From Spirochaetota bacterium (GTDB lineage Bacteria; Spirochaetota; Brevinematia; DTOW01): a DNA stretch of 44,214 bases. The first letter of the stretch is position 1. Every line of letters begins with the position of its first letter. The DNA lies in NCBI GenBank assembly GCA_025061835.1, contig JANXAC010000012.1:1-44214 (forward strand), in the 5' to 3' direction. This document shows, one piece after another, positions 6,047 through 37,159 of the stretch. The notes under the pieces are model-generated. The model was not told the DNA's origin. It saw only the letters and a program-made list of their open reading frames with translations, and made no database searches. The position numbers were made by a program, and so were the translations under genes.

Positions 6047-6056
6047 ACATTTATAA

Positions 6057-6085
6057 ATTCTATAGACCAAAAACAAACTAATCAA
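6057..6085 (-). promoter_or_regulatory. Promoter of the FliK-like/FlhB-like operon
   Basis: On the minus strand, TTGATT (6085-6080), a 17-nt spacer and TAGAAT (6062-6057), with the -10 ending 10 nt before the ATG at 6046. Predicted transcript leader: about 3-4 nt. There is no Shine-Dalgarno sequence between the -10 and the ATG. Confidence 0.55.
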
Positions 6086-6161
6086 ATCTAAATACAACCA
6101 GATAGTAAAATTGAAGAACCTACAAAACTTCCTAACCCCAAAAATCAAAAAATACTCTATT

Positions 6162-7331
6162 TTATACTGGTCTTGGATTAGGATGGTATCCGTAGATCAT
6201 ATTTATTAGTCTCTCAAGTCCCACAAGGATATTCTCTAGCCTGTTTGTTAGTGATATTCTGACAAACTTATTAGTCATATTCTGACCAAAATCTATACCT
6301 GGTGTTATTGCTACAGAGTATTCTTCCAGAAATCTTTTGGAAAATTCGTATGAGTCATTTGTGTATTTTGACATATCAAGGTAGATATAGAATGCACCTT
6401 CTACCTCATAGCCTATTGAGAAACCGAACCTCTCAAGGTATTGTTTCGCTGAAATAAACCTTTGGTGATATGTACTAGTGTATTCGTCAAGAATATCTAT
6501 ACATTCACTAATACATATACTAGCAAGAACTTGTGAAGGCGTTGGAGTTGATATAACGATGTTTTGAAGTAGTTTTTGCATGTTTGGTATATACCTGTCT
6601 GGAAGCACTAACCACCCCACTCTCCATCCAGGCATACTAAAGTATTTTGAGAAACCATTTGAGATTATCAAGTTTCCATCACGAGTGAAATACCTAGCAA
6701 CGCTACTCTCACTTTTTGGTTTTGTGAATACTATACCCTGATATATCTCATCAACAATTATTGGTAATCCTGTCTCTAGAAGCACTTCTAGAATATCATC
6801 TTTTAGCAATGTTCCAGTAGGATTTGAAGGAGAGGATGTTATAAGCCCTTTGGTTCTAGAGTTTATAACCTTCTTTAAATCACTTATATCTGGATTAAAA
6901 TTATTCTCTTTGAAAACATTTACTCTCACTACCTCCCCACCCGAGTGTAATATGAAGTTTGGATAACACGGATACGATGGGTCAAAAACTATAAACTCGC
7001 CACCACCGTCAAGAAGGAGTGATACCATAAGATACATCCCCGTGGAACTACTTGGAGTTATAACAATATTAGAAGGCGGTATCTCAACTTTATACTCTCT
7101 GAAATAGTAATTTGAAATACTCTCCCTAAGTTGTTGAATTCCTAGACTTGGTGTGTATCCCATCTTGTACTTTGATAAGTATTCAGGCAACTTCTCTAGT
7201 GCTTTTTGAGGTGTTGGAAGGTCAGGTTCTCCTATCTCCAGGTGTATAATATCAACACCATACCTCTCCATCTCAAGTGCTTTCTCTAATATATCCATTA
7301 CTATAAATGACTTTACCTTGTCAATGTTCAT
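6162..7331 (-). CDS. Class I/II pyridoxal-phosphate aminotransferase
   Basis: Fold-type I PLP enzyme of 389 residues, of the AspC/AlaT-like subgroup that transfers amino groups between amino acids and 2-oxo acids. Seen: the substrate-side GEPDLPTP near the N-terminus, the phosphate-binding ITPSSSTGMYL region, SSPSNPTG (a common motif with the PLP-contacting Asn), DEIY, and SNGFSKYFSMPGWRVGW, whose Lys (near residue 226) should form the Schiff base. The C-terminal Arg that binds the carboxylate is in FVRISLTNR. The substrate cannot be read from sequence. An upstream extension to 7394 exists, but a promoter sits inside it, so the start is taken at 7331. It runs as a single gene, about 115 nt upstream of the FliK-like gene on the same strand. 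Confidence 0.85.
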   Translation of the reverse strand: MNIDKVKSFIVMDILEKALEMERYGVDIIHLEIGEPDLPTPQKALEKLPEYLSKYKMGYTPSLGIQQLRESISNYYFREYKVEIPPSNIVITPSSSTGMYLMVSLLLDGGGEFIVFDPSYPCYPNFILHSGGEVVRVNVFKENNFNPDISDLKKVINSRTKGLITSSPSNPTGTLLKDDILEVLLETGLPIIVDEIYQGIVFTKPKSESSVARYFTRDGNLIISNGFSKYFSMPGWRVGWLVLPDRYIPNMQKLLQNIVISTPTPSQVLASICISECIDILDEYTSTYHQRFISAKQYLERFGFSIGYEVEGAFYIYLDMSKYTNDSYEFSKRFLEEYSVAITPGIDFGQNMTNKFVRISLTNRLENILVGLERLINMIYGYHPNPRPV

Positions 7332-7341
7332 AACAACAAAA

Positions 7342-7371
7342 ATTGTATTTTTGTTTAAGGAATATTTGCAA
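7342..7371 (-). promoter_or_regulatory. Promoter of aminotransferase gene
   Basis: TTGCAA (7371-7366), an 18-nt spacer and TACAAT (7347-7342) on the minus strand, ending 10 nt before the ATG at 7331. The predicted leader is about 3-4 nt, with no ribosome-binding site. Confidence 0.5.
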
Positions 7372-7471
7372 TCATAGATGAAAGTATCCTTCAAAATTCC
7401 GCTTAATAAACTGAAAATTTTCTAGACCTTACCACAAACCCTACTTCGCTTTAAATTCCCCTAAAAATTAA

Positions 7472-7501
7472 TTGGATTAACCTGAAGCAAGTTTTTATAA
7501 T
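7472..7501 (+). promoter_or_regulatory. Promoter of thiH, apparently leaderless
   Basis: TTGGAT (7472-7477), an 18-nt spacer and a perfect TATAAT (7496-7501). Only six bases (TTAATT) separate the -10 from the thiH ATG at 7508. Transcription normally starts about 7 nt after the -10, which puts +1 at or next to the A of the ATG. No Shine-Dalgarno sequence is possible. Confidence 0.65.
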
Positions 7502-7507
7502 TTAATT

Positions 7508-8641
7508 ATGATTGTTTTAGAGAAGAAGTCATTCAAAGATGTTCTTGATAGATATTACGATTGGGACTTTGACACTCTATTTGATAATGTAACTTATGAC
7601 GATGTAGAGAGAGCATTGTCAAAAGAATATCTCAATGACCACGACCTAATATCCCTTATATCACCAAAAGCACAAAAATACATAGAGTATCTCGCTAGGA
7701 AGTCATTCAGAATAACTAGGCAATTCTTTGGAAATGTGATGTTTATATACGCCCCCTTATATGTTTCAGACCATTGCGTAAATGCTTGTCTATACTGTGG
7801 CTTCAGTGTGTTTGAAAAGTTTAAAAGGAAGACACTTAATCTTGATGAAGTTAGGAAGGAAGCGGAAATATTGAGAAGTAAAGGAATAAGACATGTATTA
7901 CTACTCACAGGTGAGTCAAAGTTTGTAGGAATAGATTACATAACAAGTGTTGTTAAGATACTGAAGGAATACTTTGATGAAGTCTCAATAGAGATATACC
8001 CTATGGATGAAGATGACTACAGGAAGGTCATAGAAAGCGGAGCAGAAGGCTTAACAGTATATCAAGAGACATACGATAAGGATATCTATGACAAACTACA
8101 TGTCTTTGGACCGAAGAAGAACTATCTGTATAGACTAGAGACACCAGACAGAGGTGGAAGAGCAGGATTTAGAGAGATAAACATAGGAGCACTTCTTGGG
8201 CTTGCACCTGTGAGAAAGGAGATATTCCTGACGCTCAAGCATGCAGAGTATCTTTTTGAAACATACCCTGATGTAGAGATTGGTATCTCATTCCCTAGAA
8301 TGAGACCTATTCACAACAGTAGTAGCTTCAAGTTTGATATATACGAAGTTAGTGATACCGACATGGTTCAATTCATATCAGTTGCTAGAATATTCTTAAA
8401 CAGGATTGCGATAAACATATCAACTAGAGAATCCAGTGAATTCAGAGACAATATAGCGCTTCTAGGACCTACTAGAATGTCAGCAGAATCCTCAACCGCC
8501 GTCGGTGGATACTCACAAAACATCAAATCATCGCAGTTTGATGTATCTGATGAAAGAACAATAGAAGAGTTTGTAAAAATGCTTGAAAGTAAAGGACTGT
8601 GCCCTACTTTTGTCAATTGGATAAGAGAGTTTAATGGATAA
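7508..8641 (+). CDS. thiH: 2-iminoacetate synthase ThiH (radical SAM)
   Basis: Radical SAM tyrosine lyase that cleaves tyrosine to dehydroglycine (2-iminoacetate) and p-cresol; dehydroglycine supplies the C2-N3 unit of the thiamine thiazole ring. The 377 residues match the length of classical ThiH. The iron-sulfur motif CxxxCxxC is C90, C94, C97 in DHCVNACLYCGF. Family-like segments include the N-terminal FGNVMFIYAPLYVSDHC, VYQETYD, the DRGGRAGFREINIGALLGL region and the C-terminal SSxxxVGGY-type stretch (SAESSTAVGGYS). HydG, the hydrogenase maturase, is related but longer, and its extra C-terminal cysteine motif is absent. No thiG, thiS or thiF lies nearby. The stop overlaps the start of the HD-GYP gene by 8 nt. 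Confidence 0.9.
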   Translation: MIVLEKKSFKDVLDRYYDWDFDTLFDNVTYDDVERALSKEYLNDHDLISLISPKAQKYIEYLARKSFRITRQFFGNVMFIYAPLYVSDHCVNACLYCGFSVFEKFKRKTLNLDEVRKEAEILRSKGIRHVLLLTGESKFVGIDYITSVVKILKEYFDEVSIEIYPMDEDDYRKVIESGAEGLTVYQETYDKDIYDKLHVFGPKKNYLYRLETPDRGGRAGFREINIGALLGLAPVRKEIFLTLKHAEYLFETYPDVEIGISFPRMRPIHNSSSFKFDIYEVSDTDMVQFISVARIFLNRIAINISTRESSEFRDNIALLGPTRMSAESSTAVGGYSQNIKSSQFDVSDERTIEEFVKMLESKGLCPTFVNWIREFNG

Positions 8642-9929: not shown

Positions 9930-9969
9930 AACCAAAACTCTTCACAACTGCTAAAAACATTCTTCTAGA

Positions 9970-10770
9970 CTATACTTGGAAAACGAATATATAAAACAGA
10001 AGACTCAAGGTAAGACTTGAGAACAGGGCAAGAGATAATGCCGCCATAATACTTTTGTTTGCGGATACAGGGACTAGGTTTCTAGTTGGAGTTTTGAACC
10101 CGTAATACGATGCCACACTAGGCATAAAAAACCCTGCCACGACAACTTTCAATAAAACTAATAGTTGGTCAAATATTGAAACCTTACTGAATATGAGGTT
10201 CGTGATCTCATTAAAATCAATTTCGTAAAACAATATCAAAGTTATAGGTCCTAGAACGAGAATTATAAAACTTGCGAATATCGTGAGTATGATCAATGAG
10301 ATTGTCATACCTAAAACTCTAGGTAGAGTTAGGTAGAAAAGAGGGTCAATACCTAACGAAACCAAAATATCAAACTCCTTATTGACTGTCATATTACCTA
10401 TTTCAACCGCTATCGCAGAAACAGACCTTGCTATGACTATTATCATCACAAATAAAGGCATAATTTCTCTAAATATCACCATCACAAATACATCCGCAAT
10501 AATCTCTTTGGGGACTACCTCTGGAAACTGAAAGAAAAGTATTGAAATGGTAGCAATACTCAAAACCAGAGACACTACAAAAACTGCTCTTAATGATTGA
10601 ACTGCTGTGAAGAATATTTGTCTTATGGTATTCTGATAAAACAGTAATCTCTGATTATACGGATGTCTCTTGAATAATTCAATTAAACTGTAAAAACTCA
10701 ATGAGACAACACCTGAAAAGTAGTCAATTTTGTGTATTATAAACCTACCTATTCTACCAAATATGTTCAT
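9970..10770 (-). CDS. MlaE-family ABC transporter permease
   Basis: Integral membrane permease of the MlaE/YrbE family (266 residues), which moves phospholipids or other lipids between inner and outer membrane with an MlaF-type ATPase and an MCE-domain protein. Seen: an N-terminal amphipathic stretch, a helix near VFVVSLVLSIATISILFFQ, the family region REIMPLFVMIIVIARSVSAIAVEIGNMTVNKEFD (Arg, Ser, Ala, Glu and Gly positions as in MlaE), GIDPLFYLTLPRVLGM, and three further helices. No mlaF or MCE-domain gene is adjacent; the only partner is the small gene upstream, which overlaps by 4 nt (ATGA). The specific substrate cannot be told from sequence. Confidence 0.82.
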   Translation of the reverse strand: MNIFGRIGRFIIHKIDYFSGVVSLSFYSLIELFKRHPYNQRLLFYQNTIRQIFFTAVQSLRAVFVVSLVLSIATISILFFQFPEVVPKEIIADVFVMVIFREIMPLFVMIIVIARSVSAIAVEIGNMTVNKEFDILVSLGIDPLFYLTLPRVLGMTISLIILTIFASFIILVLGPITLILFYEIDFNEITNLIFSKVSIFDQLLVLLKVVVAGFFMPSVASYYGFKTPTRNLVPVSANKSIMAALSLALFSSLTLSLLFYIFVFQV

Positions 10771-11096: not shown

Positions 11097-11107
11097 AAAA
11101 CTCTACA

Positions 11108-11131: not shown

Positions 11132-11300
11132 ACAGAAAACTATCCTGAATATCCCGCAACCACATTTCAACCAAGAAATTTCCAGATATTTTTTCTAACT
11201 CTACAATCTTCCTAACCTCTTAAACATTACTCTTTTAACTTGTTCATATTCCCAGATATACCTACAAACCTGATCTTAATAAATCAACTTCCAAGAATAA

Positions 11301-12683: not shown

Positions 12684-14278
12684 AGTTTGATTTTAACACC
12701 ACCTTGGAAGTAAAACGGTTCCAAGACTACACTATCCTTTCTTATCTCCACAAGGTTGTTCAAAACATTTTGAAACTTAAGAAGTATTGAAAAGTTCTTA
12801 ATTACCTCCCACTCTATCTCAAAGGAGAGACCTAGATATGGATGTAGTTCAGACCCATTAAACTCAATAAGTCTAGCAGTTTCACCAAAAACACCAACCA
12901 AAAAATTAAAACTACCCAAGATAACTTTAGCATTCAACTCAACGGAATGTTGAGAGATGTGAGGAATACTTGGAAAGAAGAAAAGCAGCCTATACACACC
13001 ACCGAAATTGAGCCAATCAAGTGATATAATATCCAAGTTCAACTTTGAATACAGAGCAGTTGCGTTTGTATAATCTATAACATAAGAGTCGGCTTGGAGT
13101 CTGTCGTAATACTTATTTAGATAGTAAGACAAACCTACAAAAAGACTCAAGGAGTTATTACCTAGGAAGAATACTCTAGGACTTAGCTCAACGCCGATAT
13201 ATGAGTCACCTCTAGGAACAGAAGTCAGTATGTTTAACCCCTTTGATAAACTAGAAGATGTGAAACGATCGTAATCTTTGAAAACGGATAGTTTTATTGA
13301 GAATATGTCAGAAAACTTGTGTATAACACCAAGTCTGGAATACCACTCCATAGGGAAGAAAGTATCTGGAACAGCCCCAGCGTATAAACCTACAAACCAT
13401 CTGTTTTCGTAAATAGGTATAGAAAAAGATATTGACAAATCCCCATAGACACCACTTTTTAGTTCATTTTCGTAAGTGAGTTTGAATACACCAGCACCAA
13501 CTCCCAAATCAATCCCGAAGAAATTATAGTCCTCAACTCCAAACTTGTACCCCAAACCAAAGAAAAAGTCATTCAACGATGTGTGTAGCGAATTGAAACC
13601 TCTATCCCTTAAGTTAGCGTAGTAATGTTTCAGACCCAGTGAGAGATCTAAAGTAGACTCTTTATCAATCCTGTATCTTAGTTTTGAGTTAAGTAAGACA
13701 TCTCTATCCTTTTCATCCAAGTAAGACTGGTTATCCCAGAGTCCTTTAAACTCTTCAGAAAACTCAAAAATAGTATTCCAGAAGACAGAAGAAGATGATA
13801 ACCCAACAGAAACACTTGCAAGATCAGATTCCTTTAATGTATTTCTCAAGGTTCTCTGCTCCTGACCGTAGAACACCATATCAGGTCTTTTAAACCTATC
13901 ATACTTTATCACAGTGCTAACACTCAAGGTATCAACAGGTATCTGACTCAGACCTATGATTGAGAAGTTCAGAATATCGTTAAGTCCATATGAGAAGAGA
14001 GATATTAGTTTTGACCTGACATCTTGAGATATCTCTTTCTTTGCTTCTCTTTCAAGAATATCAACACTTTTGATAGATGGAGTATCATAAAGATCCTTCT
14101 TGTCTTCCCTTGAAGGTAGATAAATACTCCTCTCTTCTATAACGGGTGAAACCGCACCTTCAGCGAAAAACTCCGTTTGAGGTAAAATAACTTCATTAGT
14201 GTTAGTAGAAGCAAAGGATAAACTAGGAGTTAGACAAAAAACAACTAGAAACAATGAGAATATTATTCTTACTTTCAT
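12680..14278 (-). CDS. Signal-peptide outer-membrane beta-barrel protein
   Basis: Protein of 532 residues not assigned to a named family. A Sec signal peptide is clear (MKVRIIFSLFLVVFCLTPSLSFA, about 23 residues). A polar, partly helical N-terminal region (to about residue 105) follows. After that come many alternating amphipathic strands with aromatic ends (YRIDKESTLDLSLGLKHYY, FFGLGYKFGVEDYNFFGIDL, YIGVELSPRVFF). The last residues (FYFQGGVKIKL) resemble a barrel C-terminal strand, although the final residue is Leu, not Phe. This is the pattern of an outer-membrane barrel of roughly 16 or more strands. The ATG lies 6 nt after a TATAAT. The stop overlaps the der start by 4 nt. The cargo or function cannot be inferred. 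Confidence 0.75.
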   Translation of the reverse strand: MKVRIIFSLFLVVFCLTPSLSFASTNTNEVILPQTEFFAEGAVSPVIEERSIYLPSREDKKDLYDTPSIKSVDILEREAKKEISQDVRSKLISLFSYGLNDILNFSIIGLSQIPVDTLSVSTVIKYDRFKRPDMVFYGQEQRTLRNTLKESDLASVSVGLSSSSVFWNTIFEFSEEFKGLWDNQSYLDEKDRDVLLNSKLRYRIDKESTLDLSLGLKHYYANLRDRGFNSLHTSLNDFFFGLGYKFGVEDYNFFGIDLGVGAGVFKLTYENELKSGVYGDLSISFSIPIYENRWFVGLYAGAVPDTFFPMEWYSRLGVIHKFSDIFSIKLSVFKDYDRFTSSSLSKGLNILTSVPRGDSYIGVELSPRVFFLGNNSLSLFVGLSYYLNKYYDRLQADSYVIDYTNATALYSKLNLDIISLDWLNFGGVYRLLFFFPSIPHISQHSVELNAKVILGSFNFLVGVFGETARLIEFNGSELHPYLGLSFEIEWEVIKNFSILLKFQNVLNNLVEIRKDSVVLEPFYFQGGVKIKL

Positions 14279-14284
14279 AACAGT

Positions 14285-14290
14285 ATTATA
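14285..14290 (-). promoter_or_regulatory. -10 box six bases before barrel-gene start
   Basis: A perfect TATAAT (14290-14285 on the minus strand) followed by ACTGTT and the ATG at 14278. The expected +1 falls on the start codon. The -35 region at 17-18 nt spacing (AGAAGT/TAGAAG) is poor. Confidence 0.5.
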
Positions 14291-15812: not shown

Positions 15813-15842
15813 TTGAATCCAAGAAATTACATTGATTAGACT
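15813..15842 (+). promoter_or_regulatory. Promoter of purB, apparently leaderless
   Basis: TTGAAT (15813-15818), an 18-nt spacer and TAGACT (15837-15842), then six bases (TTTCTT) to the ATG at 15849. The same geometry as thiH; no Shine-Dalgarno sequence is present. Confidence 0.5.
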
Positions 15843-15848
15843 TTTCTT

Positions 15849-17255
15849 ATGGCATTTAAACATCCCCTTGTAGATAGGTATGGCTCAAAAGAGATGGTAG
15901 AACTCTTTTCGGAAGAGACGAAGTTTTCAACTTGGCGTAAGTTCTGGATAGTACTTGCAGAAACTCAAAAGGAACTAGGACTACCCATAACAGAAGAACA
16001 GATAGAAGAGATGAAAAGATTTGAAAAACAACTAAACCTTGATACTGCTAAAGAACTTGAGAAAGAACTCAACCATGATGTGATGTCACACATTGAAGCT
16101 TTCGGGCTACAGGCAACAAAAGCAAAACCTATCATACATCTCGGTGCGACGAGTTCAGAGGTAACTGACAACTCGGAAATGTATATAATCTTGGAAGCGC
16201 TTAAGTTAGTCAGAAAAAGAATTATTGATGTAATTACCAAACTTATTGAGTTTGGTAGAAAGTATAAATCACTACCCTGTCTTTCATACACTCACCTACA
16301 ACCTGCGCAACCTACTACCGTCGGTAGAAGAGCGATTCTGTGGGCGTATGATATATTCCTTGACCTTGAGGAACTTGATACATTTCTGAAAAATATCAAA
16401 ACAAGAGGAGTCAAAGGAACTACTGGAACACAAGCAAGCTACCTTGAACTGTTTGAAGGAGATGGGGAGAAGGTAAAAAAACTTGATGAAATAGTATCAA
16501 GGAAGTTAGGTTTCAAGGAAAGTTTTTGGATAACTGGACAGACATACTCCAGAAAATATGACTACATCATCCTTTCAAAACTTGCACAGATTGGTGCTTC
16601 AGCCTCAAAGTTTGCTAATGATGTTAGATACCTTCAGAGTGTAGGTGAGATGGAAGAACCTTTCGGGGAAAAACAAGTCGGTTCATCAGCAATGCCATAC
16701 AAGAGAAATCCTATCCTTTGCGAAAGGATAAACTCACTAGCAAGATATTTAACTACTCTACCCAACATCGCCATCCAAAATCACTTAACACAATTTCTTG
16801 AAAGGACTCTTGATGACTCCGCAAACAGAAGGATAATAATACCAGAAGCATTTATATGCACTGACGCTATACTACTCACCTACAAAAGAGTTGTTGATGG
16901 ACTAAAAGTCAATGAAGAGGTAATAAAACAGAGAATGAAAGAAAAACTACCCTTCTACGCAGTTGAAAACATCCTAATGAGAGCAGTCAAAAAAGGAGGA
17001 GATAGACAAGAACTACACAAATTCATAAGAGACAAATCTATGAAAGTCGTTGAAGAAAACAAACTAGGTAAAGGTATCAACCTACTTGATGAACTTCAGG
17101 TAGATGAAGCACCAGATGTTATCAAGAAAAGCGTAAGCAACATAAATGACTTCAAAGAATTCGTTGGTATGTCAATCAAACAGGTTGATGAGGTATCAAG
17201 CAGGATAGAAGAATATATAAAACGAACCTCAAATATACCTACCAATCAAGATTAA
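15849..17255 (+). CDS. purB: Adenylosuccinate lyase
   Basis: Fumarase/aspartase-superfamily enzyme acting twice in purine synthesis: it removes fumarate from SAICAR and from adenylosuccinate. Its 468 residues are close to the usual length. Seen: the opening residues HPLVDRYGSKEM, the conserved HLGATSSEVTDN (catalytic-region His and the T/S cluster), THLQPAQPTT with the general-acid/base His, and the superfamily signature GSSAMPYKRNP (about 278-288) on the flexible catalytic loop, followed by the ERTLDDSANRR region. The enzyme is a cytosolic tetramer. It stands alone with its own promoter and no other pur genes next to it. It converges on rlmH with a 155-nt gap that shows no clear feature. Confidence 0.95.
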   Translation: MAFKHPLVDRYGSKEMVELFSEETKFSTWRKFWIVLAETQKELGLPITEEQIEEMKRFEKQLNLDTAKELEKELNHDVMSHIEAFGLQATKAKPIIHLGATSSEVTDNSEMYIILEALKLVRKRIIDVITKLIEFGRKYKSLPCLSYTHLQPAQPTTVGRRAILWAYDIFLDLEELDTFLKNIKTRGVKGTTGTQASYLELFEGDGEKVKKLDEIVSRKLGFKESFWITGQTYSRKYDYIILSKLAQIGASASKFANDVRYLQSVGEMEEPFGEKQVGSSAMPYKRNPILCERINSLARYLTTLPNIAIQNHLTQFLERTLDDSANRRIIIPEAFICTDAILLTYKRVVDGLKVNEEVIKQRMKEKLPFYAVENILMRAVKKGGDRQELHKFIRDKSMKVVEENKLGKGINLLDELQVDEAPDVIKKSVSNINDFKEFVGMSIKQVDEVSSRIEEYIKRTSNIPTNQD

Positions 17256-20991: not shown

Positions 20992-20992
20992 A

Positions 20993-21400
20993 TCATCTTT
21001 TCTGTTCAACCGACAGACTTACTTCTACCGCTCCTCCTATCCTAACCCTATCCATAACCTCAATAACCATCTGGTAAGGAATATCCTTATCCCCCCTTAT
21101 GATAACAGGGACATTCGGATCTCTTACCGTTATTCTCTTTATCGCTGAAGATAAATCTTGAAGTGAGATCGGATAGTCATTCAAGAACAATTTGTTATCT
21201 CTCGTTATCGTAACTATTATTTGAGTTCTTGGTTGAGAGTCGGAGATTATGGATTTTGGAAGATTGACATTTATTGAGGATGTCTTTATTATCGTTGAGG
21301 TAAGCATAAAGAATATTGTAAGTAGAAACATCACATCTATGAGTGGCGTAGGCTCAATACCAACCCTGATAGTATTTCTTCTAGATCTAGAGTTGTTCAT
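20993..21400 (-). CDS. ExbD/TolR-family protein
   Basis: Proton-channel-coupled energy transducer subunit, 135 residues: a short basic cytoplasmic N-terminus, one membrane helix (PLIDVMFLLTIFFMLTSTII) carrying the essential Asp (D22), and a periplasmic domain (IVTITRDNKLFLNDYPIS, VPVIIRGDKDIPYQMVIEVMDRVR). With an ExbB/TolQ pentamer such proteins use the proton gradient to power TonB-type or Tol-type envelope machines. No ExbB/TolQ gene is beside it. It is first in a message with the sugar aminotransferase, one base apart. It has a good promoter but almost no leader. Confidence 0.88.
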   Translation of the reverse strand: MNNSRSRRNTIRVGIEPTPLIDVMFLLTIFFMLTSTIIKTSSINVNLPKSIISDSQPRTQIIVTITRDNKLFLNDYPISLQDLSSAIKRITVRDPNVPVIIRGDKDIPYQMVIEVMDRVRIGGAVEVSLSVEQKR

Positions 21401-21408
21401 ACAACAGA

Positions 21409-21438
21409 ATTATACTCAACTAGTAGTAGGTTATTCAA
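21409..21438 (-). promoter_or_regulatory. Promoter of exbD-aminotransferase unit
   Basis: On the minus strand, TTGAAT (21438-21433), an 18-nt spacer and TATAAT (21414-21409), 8 nt before the ATG at 21400. The predicted leader is 1-2 nt. Confidence 0.6.
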
Positions 21439-25589: not shown

Positions 25590-25618
25590 TTGAAAACTGG
25601 CTTTTTAGCAATTATAAT
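25590..25618 (+). promoter_or_regulatory. Promoter of the TPR-bactofilin-LptA-like operon
   Basis: TTGAAA (25590-25595), a 17-nt spacer and TATAAT (25613-25618). The -10 ends 15 nt before the ATG at 25634, so the leader would be about 9 nt. It lies inside a TTG-initiated extension of the next gene, arguing against that earlier start. Confidence 0.65.
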
Positions 25619-25633
25619 AATCTTGTCAAAGCT

Positions 25634-25861
25634 ATGGAACTATCAAAAGAGAACATGGTTAAACTTTTGTCGTATTATAAGCAGGGACTAAATTACTATA
25701 AACAGAGAAACTTCTCACAGGCACTTGAGTATTTTGAGGAGTGTTTGAAAATAAATCCTGAAGACGGTCCCTCAAAAGAGTATGTTGATAGGTGTAAGGA
25801 ATACATTAAAAATCCACCTCCTGACGACTGGGATGGGGTTTTTGAGATGAAGACAAAGTAG
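25634..25861 (+). CDS. Single-TPR protein resembling cyclase C-terminal tail
   Basis: About 75 residues. A TPR-like helix pair (LSYYKQGLNYYKQRNFSQALEYFEECLKINPEDGPS) is followed by YVDRCKEYIKNPPPDDWDGVFEMKTK. The C-terminal pattern RCxxYxxxPPPxxWDGV is one I know from the ends of many class III adenylate/guanylate cyclases, where it follows a TPR-like repeat; here it is free-standing, with no cyclase domain. There is no signal peptide, so it is presumably cytosolic. Its role is unknown; it may be a protein-interaction module. It opens a tight operon with bactofilin (9-nt gap) and the LptA-like gene. A frame extending to a TTG at 25550 is rejected because the promoter lies within it. Confidence 0.65.
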   Translation: MELSKENMVKLLSYYKQGLNYYKQRNFSQALEYFEECLKINPEDGPSKEYVDRCKEYIKNPPPDDWDGVFEMKTK

Positions 25862-27472: not shown

Positions 27473-30400
27473 TCAAAACACTATTCTTACATTAAGACCA
27501 AACTCAACGCCAGGTATTACATCAAAAAACTTCTCCATTACATCATTGTTTTGAACATATATCTCGGATAACTGTCCTACCAACAATTTTCCATACATAC
27601 TAAACCTGACAAAGTCCGAAAAATTCAGACTTGTCTCGTGAAGAAAATTAACTTCAAAAACCTTCCTCCTAAAACTCGCGAATTTATTGTTATTATACCA
27701 AGGTCTTTCTGTGTAGAAATTGACTTCTTCCCTATTCTCTATTACTGATGCTGTTCTTACCTTGATGAACACTAGATCAACATCACTCTCAGATGGTACC
27801 TTAAAAGAATATGTAAGCCTCACACTGTGCGATAGAAGATTGAAAAGCGATTGAGGATAGGAAAGCCCTATACCAAAATTAGAATAAAAACTAGGAATGT
27901 TTGTCATAATATCCTGGTAGGAGTAGGATAGTGTGTATGATACTGCAAGGTTTTGTTGGTCAAAAACACCAGAAAAGGATGATGAGAAATTCAAAGTATT
28001 TTTCATAGTTAGTGTGTTGAAATCCTCATCACGAGTATAGGATAGATTAGCGATAATATCATTAACAGAGATGTTTGTTGTCCTTCTGAATATAAACCAA
28101 TCAAGTTTGTATATAGGAATATATGAAACAGCTGAAAAGACAATCCTATTCAGTTGCCTAAAACTACTTAACTCCCTAACAGTCGTAGTTGAGTAGTCAA
28201 AATTGTAATTACGAGGGATAATACCAAGAATTAAATCATCAAAAGGTATAAGAGATAGAGATATACCAGCAGAACTGAACTGGTTAAGAATACTCCTTAC
28301 CTGATACAGATTTGAAACAAAAACAAGAGCATTACTTAAGTTGTTATACCCGAAAAGCCCAATATACTCATAGAAAGGTATCGCAACTATTCCACGGTAG
28401 ATGTTGTTTGTGTAAAAGTCATACCACTTCAGGTTATAGTCTATAGCATTTGCAGAAAAGGTAGTGTTATGAGATGAATTAAGAGAAAAAGTGCTGAATA
28501 TGAGTCTATTGATATTCACATCAATCTTATATGTTATTCTTCCAGTCATCTGAAGGTCTCTCGTTATGTTCGTTGTGTAGCTGAAGTTAAAGTCTTTGAA
28601 CTCATACAAGGGTGTTATGTAGATATTGAATGTGTTAAGGATGTTTGCGAATGAGAGTGAAAGAGTATCCGACTCAAAAACTTCCCTTCTAAAGCCTCTC
28701 TCTTTGAAACCTTCTAGTAGTAGCGTTAATGAGTACTGATTTCTTATTGGTATCGTCGCACTTGACAGTTCTTGAACGAATGGAATGGTATTTGATTCAC
28801 TTGATGAGAAGGTCTCTGAATGTTTAAAGACGTTATTAATGCCAACGAAGAAATAGTTTATTCCTGTTGAAAGACCTAAAGAATAACTCCAAGTCTGGAA
28901 GGACGGCGAAGAAAATATAAATACATTATTAGTCCTTGTATCCACATTCCTTGCGTTATAGACTGAAGATAAGTCAACTGAATTCCTTATGCTTACAACA
29001 TTACCAAAAAGAGAGATTGGGTAGGATACATTTAAGGCAGAACTCAATCCTATTTCTTCTGTCGTTGTGTTCTTTAGAAAGACACTCGTTCCTAAACTCA
29101 AAAGTCCATTTTGGTATGACCTATCATGTCTATCAGAGTACGAATAAGACAGGTTCGGTAGAAAACTTATGTTATGTTTTGAATAAATTGAATACCTGAA
29201 ACTTCTTGCAAAATTGTTGTAAAGCAGATACTCTGGCAATGTCGGATCTTGATATGTATCTTCGGTCTGAATTGAGTATGAGTAATTCAATCCTGAATAC
29301 TTCAGCATGTCAGATGAATAGTAATGAGTGAATGAAAAGATATTTACATTATCCTTACCACCAGTACCTCTGAAGTTCGGGAATATATTCTCTACAAAGA
29401 AAGTTGTGTATGGGTTTGAAATTAAAGGTAAATCAAAAGCCTTAATTTCACTACCATACGAGAGTGAAAGCGAAGAATTCACAGCACTGCTAACTAACCA
29501 ATTCACATCTGTCAAGAAAATCTCATTAAACCAAACCTCACCTATATTGAGTGGTTCTGAAGAATTTTCATCAACACGCACTCCTAACTCAACGGAATTT
29601 ACATCTCTAAAGGAAGGGAAACCGACTATATTCGGATAGATCGTATCATAAACATTATTGTTTATTATCATTCTATAATCTTCTCTTATCCTGACCTCAA
29701 GTCTATTCCATTTATCTTTATCAAGTCTTCCAGTCGGTATCACAAATTCAAAGTAATCCCTCTCCTTTGAAAGAAACCTGACTACAATACTCTCATCATT
29801 CAAAGTATCACCTGAAGGTTTTATACTCTGGTTAAGTTCATTCACAGTAGGGATGAATACATAAAACACTATCTTTGAGTAATAAGAAAAGTTTTGAGAT
29901 GAATTGAAACCTATGTTTAAAACACCTTCCCTACCTCCTTGATACGGAGTGAAATTTGTGTTTACCGACGAGTTTGAAAGGTTATACATAACTCTTACTG
30001 ATGCTTCATCTATTGACTTTGCTTCGGAAACGGATATACCACCTGTCCCGTGAATGTATGAGTATTCCTGTAATCTTTCCTTCTCCTCTGGTGTTTTTGC
30101 GTCAATGTTGAAAAACCTATGTTTTAGGTATAACGGTGAGTCATAAACTGATATACTGGTAGATTTTATCTGATACGGATCTTTCAGTATAATACCATCA
30201 ACCTTGTATGTTCTAGTAGTCCTGAACTTGAGTTGTATCTCGTCTATCAACAATCTCCCCTTGATACCTTGAAATTTCTTGAGGATTATTCTAACCATAA
30301 ATGTTCTTTTCAGGATCTCAACCTGTGAGGGTGAAAGAGATGCTAAAGGTATAAATAACTGTTTCCAACCGCTACCTTCAACAATGTTTGAAAACGAAAC

Positions 30401-33121
30401 GAAACTCTCATTAGTATCCAACCTTCCATTCCTATCAAGATCCTCCGTATCAATCCTACCATTACCGCCCCCCTTCCTACCACTACCTATTCTAGTTATC
30501 ACACTGTTATTCTGAATATCGTTGAATTCAAAACCGTTCTGTGAGGTTGTGAATTCCTGATCAAGGACACCATCACCATCCATATCCTCTGAAAACCTAC
30601 CAAACTGTAGAAGCATCACGACTTGGTTTGTATTGTTATCTTCATAGTTTCCATCGCCATCGTTATCCATCTGAAGCCTGTATGAAACCATAACTTCACT
30701 CAAGTCTGATATATCAACTCCAGATGGATTTAACATCATCATCGCACCAACCCAACTACCACTTGAGAAATCGTAATCAAACACTAAAGATACTTGCGAT
30801 ACATTAGGAAAGTCATTAGGAGACAGCCTACCCCCACTTGCTATATAAGGACCAGGCTTCTGAGAATAAGGAAGTATTTGAGAAGATGGAATATTCCAAG
30901 TGTAAGACATAAGAGTAAATGACTCATTCGCATAATACTGTCTGTAATCTCTGTAATATAATTTGCCTCTATTGGTATAGTAGCATCCATCACTTGATGA
31001 TTGAGATGAGAGATACCAAGAGTCCTCATCCTTGCTTATTAAGAGAGATCTCTTGTTTGACTCAAAATCATCAACTATCGCTGCACCAAACGAGTTTGGA
31101 TTAACTACAGAAATAGCATACTCTGTATCAAGATAGCCTGAAAACTTGTTATCTCCTATACCAAAGATTCTCTTAATATCAATCCTGTTTATAACTGAGG
31201 TAACCATACCAGTTTCAGGTGGAGCAGTTGTCATTCTAGGTGCCGTTCCTCCTGTCTGTGAAACCCAGATACCTGTTGATAACTTCGTATTCATAAAGTC
31301 AAACACCTGATAGTCAGCAATAGCACCTAGAGATATTTTCTGACTACCTCCAAAAAACGGTCTGTATTCATAGGAAATTTCTACCTTATCACCTTCGTTT
31401 ATAAGCGTTGAATCTCTAAATACTATCCTACCTATTGGGTATATTATCGTGTATTTATCTTTTGGTATTAAGACACCATTCACTCTAACTTCTTCACTAT
31501 TTTCTACAATATCAAAGTCAAGCTGGTATGTGCTTATCGTCTCAAAGTACCTCACTTTAAAAGTGTATGTAGACTCATAATCAAAGGGGTCTCTTGATAG
31601 TGTGTAGATGTTATAGTTTGCGTTTGATAGAAACGGCGTTGGGTTGTTAAATCTTATTATTCCCTTTACCACATCTATGTAGTAATCGGATTGTGAGAAC
31701 TGGATGCCTGCTAGTATGTTTAGGTCAGATGTTAGGTAATTTCTAATCTCAAACGTTTGAGACAAGTCAAGATTTCCTACTCCCAGAGAATAGATATTCT
31801 TAAGTTCGTAGGGTGAGTATCCTAAAGAAGATTTGAAAAGGTAGAGGTATTCCTTAGTATCGCTACCATTTCCCTTGTATATGTTAGTTGAAAACGTTAT
31901 AGGCAGTCCTGAGTTATGAGTGTAGAAAACAACAAGAGATTTACTCCTATCAAGAGAATACCTTAACTCAACTTCGCTGCTAAATCTGTCAAATATGTAC
32001 TCATTACCTTGGGCCAATTTTCTAAAAGGTATCCCATCAATGTAAACATCTGATGGTTCAAATGATGAAACCGACACCAAAAGAACCAAAGAAGATACAT
32101 CCACATTACTATCTGGAAGTTTGAAGAACTTCCTCTTTACAAAATCAATATCTCTAACATTTCTTTCCGATACTCTCCTCGTTCCTGTAAATGACTTTTT
32201 TGAAGGTATCGTAGTTGATAGTGTTCCTATAGATTCAATTGAGAAATTACCTCTCTTACCGACAAACTTTATACCTTGCGCAGACCTTGATATAGCGGTG
32301 TATGAAATATACTTACTACTAGGCTTTGAAAAACTGACATCACCAAAGGTAAGTTCCCTTACAAAGGGTTTATCATCAGAAGTAGGAATAGGCATAGGTT
32401 GAGGAGTAGTTGGTTGCTTTGCTGGGGGATTATCAGGTTCTTTGTATGACACATTAAATCTATTTATGGCACTCTTTTGGTCAAACTCAATATCAACACT
32501 AACCTTATTACCTATCTTACTTGTTGATGAAACCCTCATATCCTGATTTACATTGAAGTTTTCCTTTATGTATGAAGAAATAGGTGTTAGGAGTTCTGGA
32601 GTTTTCCTAACAACTCCGTAAGACAAACCAAACAGTATATTACCTCTTGCAAAAACTCTACTGTCAAGTTGCTCTATGTCAACCGCAACAACAGGTCTCT
32701 CTAGTCTATAGTATTCTCTTCTAATCCGTTCATCTTCTAGAAGAATATCCTTTATGATCCAATCTTCATCCAATAAAGACTCTACATTTCTCATAACCTG
32801 TTCTATTTCCTGCTCCTTACTTAAATCTGGTGAATACCTTTGGATTCTTTCATTAATGATATAGTCAAAATTAGTAGGTAATTCTGGTTCATATTCCCTT
32901 ATCCTCAAAGACAGAAGATTATCTATTTCTTTAGGTTCTAACAAGTTTGTTAAACTTTGATGAGACTGGTCAGATTGACTGTTAGTATTGTCTCCATTTG
33001 TAGATTGATCAGCAGCTTGCGAAGTTAAGGAAGTGCTATCAACATTCTCACTTGCGAAAACTACAAGCATAATGAGAAGTGAAAAAGATATCAAGAGTGG
33101 AGTAAGAAGTGATCCTCTCAT
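27473..33121 (-). CDS. Giant SprA-like outer-membrane protein
   Basis: Exported protein of about 1,882 residues. A signal peptide (LLTPLLISFSLLIMLVVFA) is followed by a Ser/Thr/Gln-rich linker and then beta strands with aromatic ends to the C-terminus (GVEFGLNVRIVF). Segments resemble SprA/Sov, the 36-strand translocation pore of the Bacteroidota type IX secretion system: VDDFESNKRSL followed by WYLSS, RVNGVLIPKDKYTI with RIVFRDS, FFGGSQKISLG, and RRLSP-type (GGRLSPNDFPNV). Mid-protein Asp-rich loops (DNDGDGNYEDNN, DMDGDGVLDQEF, DLDRNGRLDTNE) look like calcium-binding EF-hand/dockerin-type loops. It is shorter than typical SprA (over 2,000). Function in this organism is unknown; protein export or assembly of surface structures is an inference. 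The ATG at 33121 is favoured; the ATG at 33157 lies inside the promoter. Confidence 0.7.
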   Translation of the reverse strand: MRGSLLTPLLISFSLLIMLVVFASENVDSTSLTSQAADQSTNGDNTNSQSDQSHQSLTNLLEPKEIDNLLSLRIREYEPELPTNFDYIINERIQRYSPDLSKEQEIEQVMRNVESLLDEDWIIKDILLEDERIRREYYRLERPVVAVDIEQLDSRVFARGNILFGLSYGVVRKTPELLTPISSYIKENFNVNQDMRVSSTSKIGNKVSVDIEFDQKSAINRFNVSYKEPDNPPAKQPTTPQPMPIPTSDDKPFVRELTFGDVSFSKPSSKYISYTAISRSAQGIKFVGKRGNFSIESIGTLSTTIPSKKSFTGTRRVSERNVRDIDFVKRKFFKLPDSNVDVSSLVLLVSVSSFEPSDVYIDGIPFRKLAQGNEYIFDRFSSEVELRYSLDRSKSLVVFYTHNSGLPITFSTNIYKGNGSDTKEYLYLFKSSLGYSPYELKNIYSLGVGNLDLSQTFEIRNYLTSDLNILAGIQFSQSDYYIDVVKGIIRFNNPTPFLSNANYNIYTLSRDPFDYESTYTFKVRYFETISTYQLDFDIVENSEEVRVNGVLIPKDKYTIIYPIGRIVFRDSTLINEGDKVEISYEYRPFFGGSQKISLGAIADYQVFDFMNTKLSTGIWVSQTGGTAPRMTTAPPETGMVTSVINRIDIKRIFGIGDNKFSGYLDTEYAISVVNPNSFGAAIVDDFESNKRSLLISKDEDSWYLSSQSSSDGCYYTNRGKLYYRDYRQYYANESFTLMSYTWNIPSSQILPYSQKPGPYIASGGRLSPNDFPNVSQVSLVFDYDFSSGSWVGAMMMLNPSGVDISDLSEVMVSYRLQMDNDGDGNYEDNNTNQVVMLLQFGRFSEDMDGDGVLDQEFTTSQNGFEFNDIQNNSVITRIGSGRKGGGNGRIDTEDLDRNGRLDTNESFVSFSNIVEGSGWKQLFIPLASLSPSQVEILKRTFMVRIILKKFQGIKGRLLIDEIQLKFRTTRTYKVDGIILKDPYQIKSTSISVYDSPLYLKHRFFNIDAKTPEEKERLQEYSYIHGTGGISVSEAKSIDEASVRVMYNLSNSSVNTNFTPYQGGREGVLNIGFNSSQNFSYYSKIVFYVFIPTVNELNQSIKPSGDTLNDESIVVRFLSKERDYFEFVIPTGRLDKDKWNRLEVRIREDYRMIINNNVYDTIYPNIVGFPSFRDVNSVELGVRVDENSSEPLNIGEVWFNEIFLTDVNWLVSSAVNSSLSLSYGSEIKAFDLPLISNPYTTFFVENIFPNFRGTGGKDNVNIFSFTHYYSSDMLKYSGLNYSYSIQTEDTYQDPTLPEYLLYNNFARSFRYSIYSKHNISFLPNLSYSYSDRHDRSYQNGLLSLGTSVFLKNTTTEEIGLSSALNVSYPISLFGNVVSIRNSVDLSSVYNARNVDTRTNNVFIFSSPSFQTWSYSLGLSTGINYFFVGINNVFKHSETFSSSESNTIPFVQELSSATIPIRNQYSLTLLLEGFKERGFRREVFESDTLSLSFANILNTFNIYITPLYEFKDFNFSYTTNITRDLQMTGRITYKIDVNINRLIFSTFSLNSSHNTTFSANAIDYNLKWYDFYTNNIYRGIVAIPFYEYIGLFGYNNLSNALVFVSNLYQVRSILNQFSSAGISLSLIPFDDLILGIIPRNYNFDYSTTTVRELSSFRQLNRIVFSAVSYIPIYKLDWFIFRRTTNISVNDIIANLSYTRDEDFNTLTMKNTLNFSSSFSGVFDQQNLAVSYTLSYSYQDIMTNIPSFYSNFGIGLSYPQSLFNLLSHSVRLTYSFKVPSESDVDLVFIKVRTASVIENREEVNFYTERPWYNNNKFASFRRKVFEVNFLHETSLNFSDFVRFSMYGKLLVGQLSEIYVQNNDVMEKFFDVIPGVEFGLNVRIVF

Positions 33122-33135
33122 AACATTAATAGAAT

Positions 33136-33165
33136 ATTCTATAATTCCAAACCACATAAATTCAA
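33136..33165 (-). promoter_or_regulatory. Promoter of SprA-like gene
   Basis: TTGAAT (33165-33160), an 18-nt spacer and TAGAAT (33141-33136) on the minus strand, ending 14 nt before the ATG at 33121. The predicted leader is about 8 nt. It lies back-to-back with the helicase promoter, whose -35 begins at 33168. Confidence 0.5.
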
Positions 33166-33167
33166 AG

Positions 33168-33196
33168 TTGATTTTTACTCATTAATCAATTATAAT
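33168..33196 (+). promoter_or_regulatory. Promoter of SNF2-family helicase gene
   Basis: TTGATT (33168-33173), a 17-nt spacer and a perfect TATAAT (33191-33196). Unlike most promoters here, it leaves a leader of about 26 nt with an AGGTGA ribosome-binding site before the ATG at 33229. Confidence 0.65.
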
Positions 33197-33228
33197 CTCT
33201 TTTGATTTAAATTCGGTTAGGTGACACT

Positions 33229-36200
33229 ATGATTACTAGGTCTATGATCCTTAATGAGTTCGGTGAAAAGACATATAACAAAGCACTGAAATCTATAGAT
33301 AATATTGAGATACTTGACATAGATATCATATCAATTGACCACACAATAAAAGTTTATGGTAAGATCAGAAGTGATGAAGAAGAGACAATAGCAACAAAGA
33401 TTGAAATTGACTCCGAATCTGAAGATATAATATCCTCTGAATGTTCCTGTGGCTCCAGAAACTGCGAACACGTAGTTATTCTATTATTAAGTCTAAACAA
33501 TCAGGATAAAGATGAAATCCTTACCAAAAGTAAGAAAGTTTTAAGCGACAGAAAACTACTACCCTTGGAAATAATCCTTGACTTCTCCCAATTAAGATCC
33601 TTATCCGTTATAAGAGTGAGATTTGACCTAGCAGATAAAAAGTTAGCAAGAAGCCCTAAAAACTACATATACGAATACATAATTGACGATGTTAAATCAA
33701 TAAAAGTTACTCCGGAGGATGATAGGTTTTTGAGAACTCTAATATCTGAAAACAACATCTATACATATCCTGACGAAGGTATAAGCCTTTCAATGAGCCA
33801 ATTTATCAGAATGATAGACCTACTCAAAGAGCATCCAAGAGTTTATATACATCCAAATCACGAAGAGTTGGTTATAACAGATAATGTATTCATACCCAAA
33901 CTTAGTATAGTTTATGAGGAGGATAATAACAATAAAAAACTTAGAATAATCACCGAAGAAGATTACTCAAATACATACATCATCGCAAATGGTAACACCA
34001 AAAGAGTATTGAGAGGGAATTATCTATACACTTTTGACAACCCTATACCGATTGAAACATGGCTTACAATACTTGAAAACAAGTTCAAGATAGGCGAGAA
34101 AGAGTTTCCGAAGTTCTTCGGAAAATTCTACGAATTACTATCAAAGACCTCAAGAATAAACTTAAGTAGCGATATAAGCATAAATAAACCTGTTATAGTA
34201 AATGTATCAGATGTTGATATAAAAATTTACCTTGACTACAACGAGAGTATTGGTAAAGTGTATTGGGAACCTGCAGTTATATATAAAGGCAAGGAAACAA
34301 AAATAAAAGATCTCTTTGATGTTCTAGTCAATCACGTTGAGATAGACACAAACCACTTTATAAGTGATTTGAAAACATTGAGGCAGGTAATACTCAATAA
34401 ACTATACGATATAGGGATGAAAGAATACATAGTTTCAGTAAATAACTTAAGCCATTATATAAATATATCCAAGGATGAATTTATCAAAAAGGTCTTACAA
34501 GGATACAAGAGATGGGGTAGCGGGTTTGAGGTTTCAAACAGGACGAGGGCATTGGTCCCAATAGAAGTTAAGGTAATATTTGATATTGATATCCAATCTG
34601 AAGGCAAGAGAAACTTCAAATTTAACTTCAGAGTAGTCCTAGTAGAACCTGATACAAATACGATAGTTAAGGAAACAAGTATAGATAACTTCTTGAAAAG
34701 CATTCAAGAGATATCAGGCAATGATATTATTGACCTCTCTGGAAAGTATTACACTATAATCAACTTAGATGAGATAAACAAGATTATTGAAAAAATCAGA
34801 GAGATGGACCTAGAAAACAGTAATGAAGGTAGTATAATAAGATTGATGAGAATTATATCTCTTGAAGATGAGATAATTGAGAGTAAATTATTCCAGTCAT
34901 TGAGGGTTAGAAAAGATGAGATCGTTGAGAAACTTAAAAGCGAGATAAAATCTCTTGGTAATGATTTTAGTTTGGAATTACCCAAAGATGTAGAAAAGGT
35001 GATAAGAGAATATCAGAAGGTTGGATATTACTGGCTTCATTTTCTATATAAGAACGGGTTTGGCGGTATTCTTGCAGATGATATGGGGCTTGGTAAGACA
35101 CTCCAAGCCTTGACATTCATAAAGAAGATAAGCGAAACTTCAAAGACATCCCCATCGCTTGTGATATGCCCAACTTCACTCACACACAATTGGGCTAGAG
35201 AGATAGAAAAGTTCTTCCCATCACTTAAATACACAGTCATATCTGGGAAACCAAAAGACAGAGAAGAACTACTCAATAACTTTTCAGACTATGATGTAAT
35301 TATAACATCTTACGCACTACTGAGGAATGACATAGACCTATACTTATCAAAGAACTTTGAAGTTGTTGTAGTTGACGAAGCACAGTATATAAAGAACAAA
35401 GAAGCAAAGATAACGAGATATGTTAAACTTCTTAAATCACAGATAAAGGTTGCTCTCACAGGAACACCAATTGAGAACTCCGTATCCGACTTATGGTCCA
35501 TATTTGACTTCATAATGCCAGGAGTTTTAGGGAACTATCAGTCCTTTATAGAAAGATATTCTAAACCTGAAAACCATAGCGAACTCGCCAAGAGAATATC
35601 ATACTTCATACTAAGAAGGAAAAAGGAGGATGTCCTCAAAGAACTACCAAAGAAAATAGAGCAAAATATCTTCGTTCCGCTATCACCGGCGCAGAGCGAG
35701 ATATACGAGAATGTAGCCAAGGAGGTTAGATTAAGCATACTTAAGCAGGTTGGAGAAGCAGGTTTTGAAAAATCCAAAATTCATATACTCTCTGGCTTAA
35801 CAAAACTAAGACAGATATGTAATCACCCATACCTAGTATCAGAAGAATATAAGGATGTCAAATCTGGTAAAATGGAACTTCTCATGGACCTACTTGATGA
35901 TGCCATACAAGGAGGACATAAAGTGCTAGTGTTCTCTCAATTCGTTGAGATGCTTAAGATCATAAAAGAAGAGTTTAGAAAACTAGGTATAAGATACTCA
36001 TATCTAGATGGTTCTACAAAAAATAGACAATCTGTGATAGATGAATTCAACCAAAATGATGATATAAAGGTATTCCTGATAAGTTTAAAAGCAGGTGGTT
36101 TTGGTATAAACCTAACATCAGCAGACATAGTCATCCTATACGACCCGTGGTGGAACCCAATGATTGAAAAACAAGCTATGGATAGAGCACATAGAATAGG

Positions 36201-36372
36201 TCAAACCAAAACTGTCAATGTTTATAAACTACTTACTGAAAATACAATTGAAGAGAAAATTCTTGCTTTACAAGAAAACAAGAGACTAATATTCTCCAAT
36301 ATTGTAGAAACAAGTTCTTCCACACTATCTTCAATGACTTGGGATGAAGTGAAATCACTTCTTGAAATATAA
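33229..36372 (+). CDS. SNF2-family ATPase with SWIM zinc finger
   Basis: Bacterial Swi2/Snf2 DNA-translocating ATPase, 1,047 residues. The N-terminal SWIM zinc finger is CxCx4CxH at C72, C74, C79, H81. A long middle region (about 90-580) follows, matching the helicase-associated N-terminal part of such proteins. The ATPase core begins near 590: REYQKVGYYWLHFL, Walker A DDMGLGKT (about 617-624), CPTSLTHNW, DEAQYIKN (motif II, about 716), LTGTPIENS, then the second lobe with KVLVFSQF, YLDGSTKNRQ, LISLKAGGFGINLTSAD, DPWWNP and DRAHRIGQ (motif VI). Likely a nucleic-acid remodeller linked to transcription or repair (family inference). It is monocistronic, convergent with lptB only 13 nt away. Confidence 0.92.
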   Translation: MITRSMILNEFGEKTYNKALKSIDNIEILDIDIISIDHTIKVYGKIRSDEEETIATKIEIDSESEDIISSECSCGSRNCEHVVILLLSLNNQDKDEILTKSKKVLSDRKLLPLEIILDFSQLRSLSVIRVRFDLADKKLARSPKNYIYEYIIDDVKSIKVTPEDDRFLRTLISENNIYTYPDEGISLSMSQFIRMIDLLKEHPRVYIHPNHEELVITDNVFIPKLSIVYEEDNNNKKLRIITEEDYSNTYIIANGNTKRVLRGNYLYTFDNPIPIETWLTILENKFKIGEKEFPKFFGKFYELLSKTSRINLSSDISINKPVIVNVSDVDIKIYLDYNESIGKVYWEPAVIYKGKETKIKDLFDVLVNHVEIDTNHFISDLKTLRQVILNKLYDIGMKEYIVSVNNLSHYINISKDEFIKKVLQGYKRWGSGFEVSNRTRALVPIEVKVIFDIDIQSEGKRNFKFNFRVVLVEPDTNTIVKETSIDNFLKSIQEISGNDIIDLSGKYYTIINLDEINKIIEKIREMDLENSNEGSIIRLMRIISLEDEIIESKLFQSLRVRKDEIVEKLKSEIKSLGNDFSLELPKDVEKVIREYQKVGYYWLHFLYKNGFGGILADDMGLGKTLQALTFIKKISETSKTSPSLVICPTSLTHNWAREIEKFFPSLKYTVISGKPKDREELLNNFSDYDVIITSYALLRNDIDLYLSKNFEVVVVDEAQYIKNKEAKITRYVKLLKSQIKVALTGTPIENSVSDLWSIFDFIMPGVLGNYQSFIERYSKPENHSELAKRISYFILRRKKEDVLKELPKKIEQNIFVPLSPAQSEIYENVAKEVRLSILKQVGEAGFEKSKIHILSGLTKLRQICNHPYLVSEEYKDVKSGKMELLMDLLDDAIQGGHKVLVFSQFVEMLKIIKEEFRKLGIRYSYLDGSTKNRQSVIDEFNQNDDIKVFLISLKAGGFGINLTSADIVILYDPWWNPMIEKQAMDRAHRIGQTKTVNVYKLLTENTIEEKILALQENKRLIFSNIVETSSSTLSSMTWDEVKSLLEI

Positions 36373-36384
36373 CTTGAAATATAA
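36361..36384. repeat. Tandem 12-bp duplication across helicase stop codon
   Basis: CTTGAAATATAA occurs at 36361-36372 and again at 36373-36384. The first copy is the final Leu-Glu-Ile-stop of the helicase; the second repeats the same codons and the stop in frame, right up to the lptB stop codon. A recent slippage duplication is the simple explanation. Confidence 0.85.
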
Positions 36385-36385
36385 A

Positions 36386-37111
36386 CTAAATATCAAACGA
36401 TTGTCCAAGGTATATCTCTCTCGCTTTCGGATCGTTTATAAGTGTTCCAGCATCTCCTTCTATCATAATCTCACCGTTGTGAATTATATACGCTCTATCA
36501 ACAATTTTGAGTGTTTCCCTTACATTATGATCCGTTATCAAAACACCTATGTTTTTATCCTCTCTTAACATCCTGACAATATTCTGAATATCATTGATAG
36601 CTATTGGGTCAATTCCTGTAAAAGGTTCATCAAGCAGCAAAAACGATGGCTCAAGTGCAATCATTCTAGCAACCTCAAGCCTTCTCTTCTCACCACCAGA
36701 TAAAGCAGATGCTATCGTTTTTCTAACCTTCGTAAGACCCATATAGTCTAGAACTTCATCAGTTCTCTTATTTAGTTCCTTACCAATGTAGCCTTTGAGT
36801 TCCAATATACACTTGACATTATCTTCAACTGACATAGACCTAAAAACAGAATGTTCTTGAGGTAAGTAGCCTATACCAAGTTGTGCTCTCTTGTAGATAG
36901 GTAAATTCGTTATGTTCTTATCATCAAAAAATACATTACCACCATCTGGCGAAACTATACCAACTATTATATAGAATGTCGTTGTCTTGCCTGAACCATT
37001 AGGTCCTAGAAAACCAACAATCTCACCCCTACTTATTTCAATAGAAATACCATTAACAACGAAACGCCTATTGTATTGCTTATAAACCTTCTCAACCCTC
37101 AATTTGCTCAT
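36386..37111 (-). CDS. lptB: LPS export ABC transporter ATPase LptB
   Basis: Cytoplasmic ABC ATPase powering LPS/LOS extraction with LptF/LptG. Its 241 residues match LptB. Seen: Walker A GPNGSGKTT (36-44), Q-loop GYLPQEHSVFRSMSVEDN (LptB-typical), signature LSGGEKRRLEVARM, Walker B FLLLDEPFTGIDPIA, and H-loop TDHNVRETL. The sequence ends ILINDPKAREIYLG-like (LINDPKAREIYLGQSF), characteristic of LptB over other ABC proteins. The adjacent genes do not encode LptF, LptG or LptC; the LptA-like gene is about 9 kb away. The start codon lies 6 nt after a TATAAT. Confidence 0.93.
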   Translation of the reverse strand: MSKLRVEKVYKQYNRRFVVNGISIEISRGEIVGFLGPNGSGKTTTFYIIVGIVSPDGGNVFFDDKNITNLPIYKRAQLGIGYLPQEHSVFRSMSVEDNVKCILELKGYIGKELNKRTDEVLDYMGLTKVRKTIASALSGGEKRRLEVARMIALEPSFLLLDEPFTGIDPIAINDIQNIVRMLREDKNIGVLITDHNVRETLKIVDRAYIIHNGEIMIEGDAGTLINDPKAREIYLGQSFDI

Positions 37112-37117
37112 CGTTGA

Positions 37118-37159
37118 ATTATAATAACCAATTATACAAAAAGATTTCTAGTTAAGCAA
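37118..37159 (-). promoter_or_regulatory. lptB promoter region
   Basis: On the minus strand, TTGCTT (37159-37154), a 17-nt spacer and TATAAT (37136-37131), giving a leader of about 12 nt. A second perfect TATAAT (37123-37118) lies exactly 6 nt before the ATG at 37111 but has a poor -35. Either way the message starts on, or just before, the start codon, with no Shine-Dalgarno sequence. Confidence 0.55.

Follow-up and report, generated by a model that had tools for sequence, protein, structure and literature searches.

The leaderless mode of translation initiation and its signal, a TANNNT box close to the ATG, are already established in bacteria. The survey by Zheng et al. (2011; PMC3160421) describes TA-led leaderless genes, with TANNNT at about −12, across 953 bacteria, and records them in six of 18 Spirochaetes genomes, where they represent 1.8–6.9% of the genes. 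In Deinococcus-Thermus, a −10 box lying directly before the ORF has been shown experimentally to drive leaderless expression, and ∼30% of the ORFs are concerned (PMC12340547). dRNA-seq of Leptospira interrogans detected ∼440 mRNAs with a 5′UTR of <10 nt, and for 170–184 genes the mRNA has the start codon at its very 5′ end (PMC5243855).

The DNA studied here, a window of 44,214 nt, is contig 12 of the 1.80 Mb draft genome (35% GC) of an uncultured spirochaete belonging to the class containing Brevinematales, a group assigned to Spirochaetota by NCBI. This host genome (G000) was compared with the other members of its own family f1 (G001–G004), of which G003 is a species of the same genus, and with four outgroup genomes, three of them at 29–35% GC, that represent three further families of the class. 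The first-pass annotation of the window had proposed widespread leaderless initiation and knew of no such report for the lineage. This holds for the class, for which no report of a leaderless mode was found in the open-access literature and which the accessible part of the survey by Zheng et al. does not mention; it does not hold for Spirochaetes at large, where leaderless genes are documented (PMC3160421, PMC5243855). In that survey, the signal, its position and the inference drawn from it are the same as in the host, and the frequency in the host, where start-abutting promoters precede ∼11–15% of all genes called, is above the figures given there for Spirochaetes, which were obtained by a different method (PMC3160421). 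L. interrogans belongs to the same phylum, and its leaderless genes coexist with leadered ones, as appears to be the case in the host; it is a member of another class, and no general promoter consensus was recovered from it, whereas the predicted sites of the host bear a clear TTGAAA-N18-TATAAT (PMC5243855). The two motif classes of Deinococcus-Thermus (TANNNT or RBS) resemble those of the host, which differs in having a strong −35 box at 18 bp as part of the element (PMC12340547).

Sigma-70 promoters usually start transcription ∼7 nt past the −10 box. When the −10 box ends 6 nt before the ATG, the A of the AUG is therefore the predicted transcript start. The nine promoter strings claimed earlier for the window were all found there with the spacings given, and five of them (thiH, purB, a barrel gene, lptB, and exbD) have the exact leaderless geometry, N6–N8. 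Sites were also scored with a held-out sigma-70 promoter model, for which G003 was the sole training genome and the host the test genome; d denotes the number of nucleotides between the end of the −10 box and the start codon. The thiH promoter, TTGGAT-N18-TATAAT-N6-ATG (7472..7510, plus strand, ATG at 7508), belongs to a gene identified by TIGR02351 above the cut-off (NCBIfam); its orthologues carry −10-N6-ATG in G002, G003, and G004 and N8-GTG in G001. For purB, TTGAAT-N18-TAGACT-N6-ATG was located at 15813..15851 on the plus strand (ATG at 15849), the protein being identified by TIGR00928 (NCBIfam) and its start fixed by a conserved N-terminus. All five family members have a TA-box 6–9 nt before the purB ATG without a Shine-Dalgarno (SD) sequence, and the outgroups have mostly SD-like sites. 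Recoding in G020, where the PurB frame contains four TGA codons, was ruled out, as the frame is disrupted locally, outside the conserved part. The exbD promoter, TTGAAT-N18-TATAAT-N8-ATG (21398..21438, minus strand, ATG at 21400), had a held-out score of 8.9, and ExbD was identified by a Pfam match. The form TTGAA[TC]-N18-TATAAT-N6/7/8-ATG is present in all five members, with N6/7 in G001–G004, and an SD is present in several outgroups. The gene named a barrel protein in the first-pass annotation has TATAAT-N6-ATG at 14276..14290 (minus strand, start at 14278; held-out score 5.6, d = 6); its −35 box is weak, there being no TTG and only the −10 good, and its protein gave no Pfam or NCBIfam match. 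At lptB (TIGR04406, NCBIfam), the proximal TATAAT-N6-ATG (37109..37123, minus strand, ATG at 37111) was recovered by string match, and two promoter-like elements are present within 37109–37171, TTGCTT-N17-TATAAT lying upstream of the proximal box. Its orthologues have TATCAT-N6-ATG in G001 and an SD instead in G004. A further TATAAT-N6-ATG, at 33182, was set aside as a chance occurrence since it precedes a frame of only six codons.

The remaining four sites lie further from the start codon, all but the last of them on the minus strand. With N10, the FliK-like gene and the aminotransferase would have leaders of ∼4 nt. The promoter of the former, TTGATT-N17-TAGAAT-N10-ATG (6044..6085, ATG at 6046), was found by string match and by the held-out model, and the G003 orthologue also falls in the 6–10 class (d = 6); the protein gave no Pfam or NCBIfam match. 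That of the latter, TTGCAA-N18-TACAAT-N10-ATG (7329..7371, ATG at 7331; held-out score 7.7), corresponds to TTGAAG-N18-TAGAAT-N8-ATG in G002. For the N14 and N15 sites, of the SprA-like gene and the TPR mini-protein, the implied leader is ∼8–9 nt. The proposed SprA-like promoter, TTGAAT-N18-TAGAAT-N14-ATG (33119..33165, ATG at 33121; string match), is uncertain because it overlaps the start of the longest ORF at 33157: it needs the internal ATG 33121, the coding-based start is likewise 33157, and the site is not the top promoter match for that start. The 1894-aa protein encoded at 27473–33157 showed a weak match to SprA/Sov of type IX secretion (TIGR04189, E 3.8e-11), with a score far below the curated cut-off and without any Pfam match; such a protein is unexpected in a spirochaete. 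The TPR mini-protein, which shows TPR matches, is preceded by TTGAAA-N17-TATAAT-N15-ATG (25590..25636, plus strand, ATG at 25634; held-out score 8.5, d = 15) and would thus have a short leader rather than none.

Genome-wide analysis covered 1.186 Mb of the host genome, with 663 probable first-of-unit genes and 312 operon-internal genes, the gene starts having been called from coding potential, with upstream signals ignored by the finder. The scan for TANNNT alone suggested earlier was weakly positive, with 83 of 385 genes at 5–8 nt against 64.7 ± 6.8 in shuffles (z = 2.7); the test is weak because the DNA is AT-rich, and two-box scans and an EM mixture model were used in its place. TTG-N17/18-TANNNT occurred at 6–10 nt before 59 first-of-unit genes against 5.6 ± 2.3 in dinucleotide-preserving shuffles, and the same scan in G003 gave 25 against 2.4. 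Upstream of the 277 TANNNT boxes at d = 6–10, TTG was found 29 times at 17 bp, 64 times at 18 bp, and ∼4–19 times at each other spacing; since the distances peak at 17–18 bp, the boxes at 6–10 nt are promoters. The held-out model placed a promoter at d = 6–10 before 111 of the 663 first-of-unit genes, compared with ∼4.8 per shuffle and with only 5 of the 312 operon-internal genes. The distribution of d has a cliff, from four genes at d = 5 to 35 at d = 6, with d = 0–5 near background, the exact leaderless geometry d = 6 as the top class, and a second hump at 19–33 nt. Such a drop below 6 nt is expected if the transcript has to include the AUG.

The EM mixture, seeded with a generic sigma-70 consensus under a flat position prior, settled on TTGAAA-N18-TATAAT in the family. 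For the host, it expected 107 genes at 6–8 nt and 47 at 9–10 nt of 663, with few at 0–5 nt; the rest of the family, analyzed independently, had the same shape (77 and 30 of 330), and the outgroups gave 5 of 368. Run on operon-internal genes, the mixture found no promoter motif; the motif is thus not a product of the model. Promoters adjoining the start codon are thus borne out genome-wide and in relatives, with a sharp onset at 6 nt. Their description as widespread is to be read moderately, as they concern from ∼17% (threshold count) to 23% (mixture model) of the candidate first-of-unit genes. The candidates in the 6–10 class include alaS, lepA, a riboflavin-synthase-type lumazine-binding protein, acetate kinase, a TrpG/TrpD-type fusion, and a PtsI-type enzyme; hence, the mode extends beyond accessory genes.

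An SD core was present in 1% of the genes with the promoter at 6–8 nt, 0% at 9–10 nt, 37% at 11–18 nt, and 73% at 19–33 nt. Geometry accounts for part of the absence at d = 6–10, where the −10 box takes up the space of an SD; for the mRNA, the outcome does not differ. The claim of two initiation modes in one genome was thereby upheld, SD-led genes occurring alongside start-abutting promoters genome-wide and in the relatives. Two candidate causes were ruled out: a degenerate anti-SD, as the 16S rRNA ends in GGATCACCTCCTT with the anti-SD CCTCC intact, and a lost or truncated ribosomal protein S1, as the protein is full length in the host and in G003. We favor, with a probability of about 0.9, the coexistence in the host of a leaderless or near-leaderless mode, with the −10 box ending 6–10 nt from the start, and an SD-led mode. 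In the former, a housekeeping sigma-70 promoter, TTGAAA-N18-TATAAT, would end 6–10 nt upstream of the start codon, and the 5′ end of the transcript, carrying no SD, would lie at the A of the AUG (d = 6–8) or 1–4 nt before it. By analogy, the ribosome would start on the 5′-terminal AUG as a 70S particle or as an IF2-assisted 30S subunit. In the latter, a promoter 19–33 nt upstream would give a leader of 13–27 nt, with the SD pairing with the intact anti-SD. The base at −1 of the start codon was T in 70% of first and 63% of internal genes, compared with 39–46% in G006 and intermediate values in others; extended pairing with A37 of the initiator tRNA is possible, and the feature is not specific to leaderless genes.

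It is improbable that the abutting promoters, though real, are secondary, and that a main promoter upstream yields a leadered mRNA translated without an SD in an A/U-rich, S1-dependent manner. The second TATAAT further up at lptB and the full-length S1 would fit such an arrangement, but for these genes no promoter within the 100 nt upstream outscores the proximal site, which stays in one distance class from species to species. Leadered transcripts of the same genes could also arise from further promoters upstream, as at lptB, and lptB is possibly a gene caught between the two initiation modes. Still less likely is a misassignment of start codons, by which normal promoters would serve true starts 15–30 nt downstream, behind internal SDs. 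A few cases do fit, namely, the seven of the 111 candidates at d = 6–10 in which an in-frame start with an SD before it follows closely downstream, and a YebC-like gene. However, misassignment would not make the distribution rise abruptly at exactly 6 nt before the called ATG, and SD-preceded alternatives were not clearly commoner in this class than in the other distance classes (5 of 152 and 8 of 52). Moreover, the N-termini of PurB, ThiH, LptB, and ExbD align within the family at the ATG or within a few residues of it, and in the AlaS, LepA, AckA, and GATase-type candidates, the Pfam domain starts no more than a few residues from the called start. The YebC-like gene (contig C2, 19583–20353) reads MEVS-MSGHSKW, with the promoter 8 nt before the first ATG and the usual YebC start at the second; its start is probably misassigned, the second ATG being the likely one, or it has a dual start. 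The proposal that TANNNT near the ATG merely reflects AT-rich upstream DNA, to which the commonness of TANNNT alone and its excess of only z = 2.7 lend some color, is already refuted by the matched shuffles, in which requiring the −35 box gives 59/5.6 observed/expected, by the equally or more AT-rich G010, G015, and G011, which are almost without such promoters, and by the retention of the box position between orthologues.

Among orthologue pairs of the family with agreeing starts, the promoter of the relative lay at d = 6–10 in 14 of 21 pairs whose host promoter did so and in 9 of 86 of the others (Fisher p = 4e-7, indicative only, since the genomes compared are related and purB enters twice). 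The 45-nt upstream regions of these family pairs were only 43% identical. The four outgroup genomes had almost no promoters at 6–10 nt (∼1%), although the samples from G010 (29.5% GC), G015 (31%), and G011 (35%) were small, with 33–54 first genes each. As outgroups at 29–35% GC are without the mode, AT-richness is not its cause. Where G006 was sampled, 10 of 14 orthologues of the putative leaderless genes of the host had an SD; the division was more even in the outgroups of low GC content (5 of 9, 3 of 4, and 3 of 7).

The promoters of the family also differ in their spacer. In f1, with TTGAAA as the −35 box, the −35/−10 spacer is 18 bp in 65% and 17 bp in 26%, while in the other families of the class it is 17 bp in 77–80%; spacers of 17 and 18 bp were counted 122 and 166 times, respectively, within the family and 55 and 14 times outside it. 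An altered sigma factor or polymerase may underlie the shift; among the sequences analyzed, RpoD was found only in the host genome. It seems fairly likely that one family rewired its gene starts, shortening leaders genome-wide and turning about one-fifth of its transcription units, including alaS, lepA, and purB, leaderless, with the spacer moving concurrently from 17 to 18 bp. What is new here is the lineage, the restriction of the mode to a single family of the class, and the concurrent spacer shift.

A spirochaete family for which no leaderless initiation was found reported is thereby added to the lineages predicted to use it substantially. Many gene starts in the family need promoter-aware annotation because tools that expect an SD may misplace them. 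Families of one class, similar in GC content, with and without the mode provide a natural comparison, and the orthologues of purB, exbD, and thiH can therefore show the change between SD-led and leaderless expression. If the rewiring is true, close relatives with and without the mode would be at hand, and the switch from SD-led to leaderless initiation would be traceable gene by gene.
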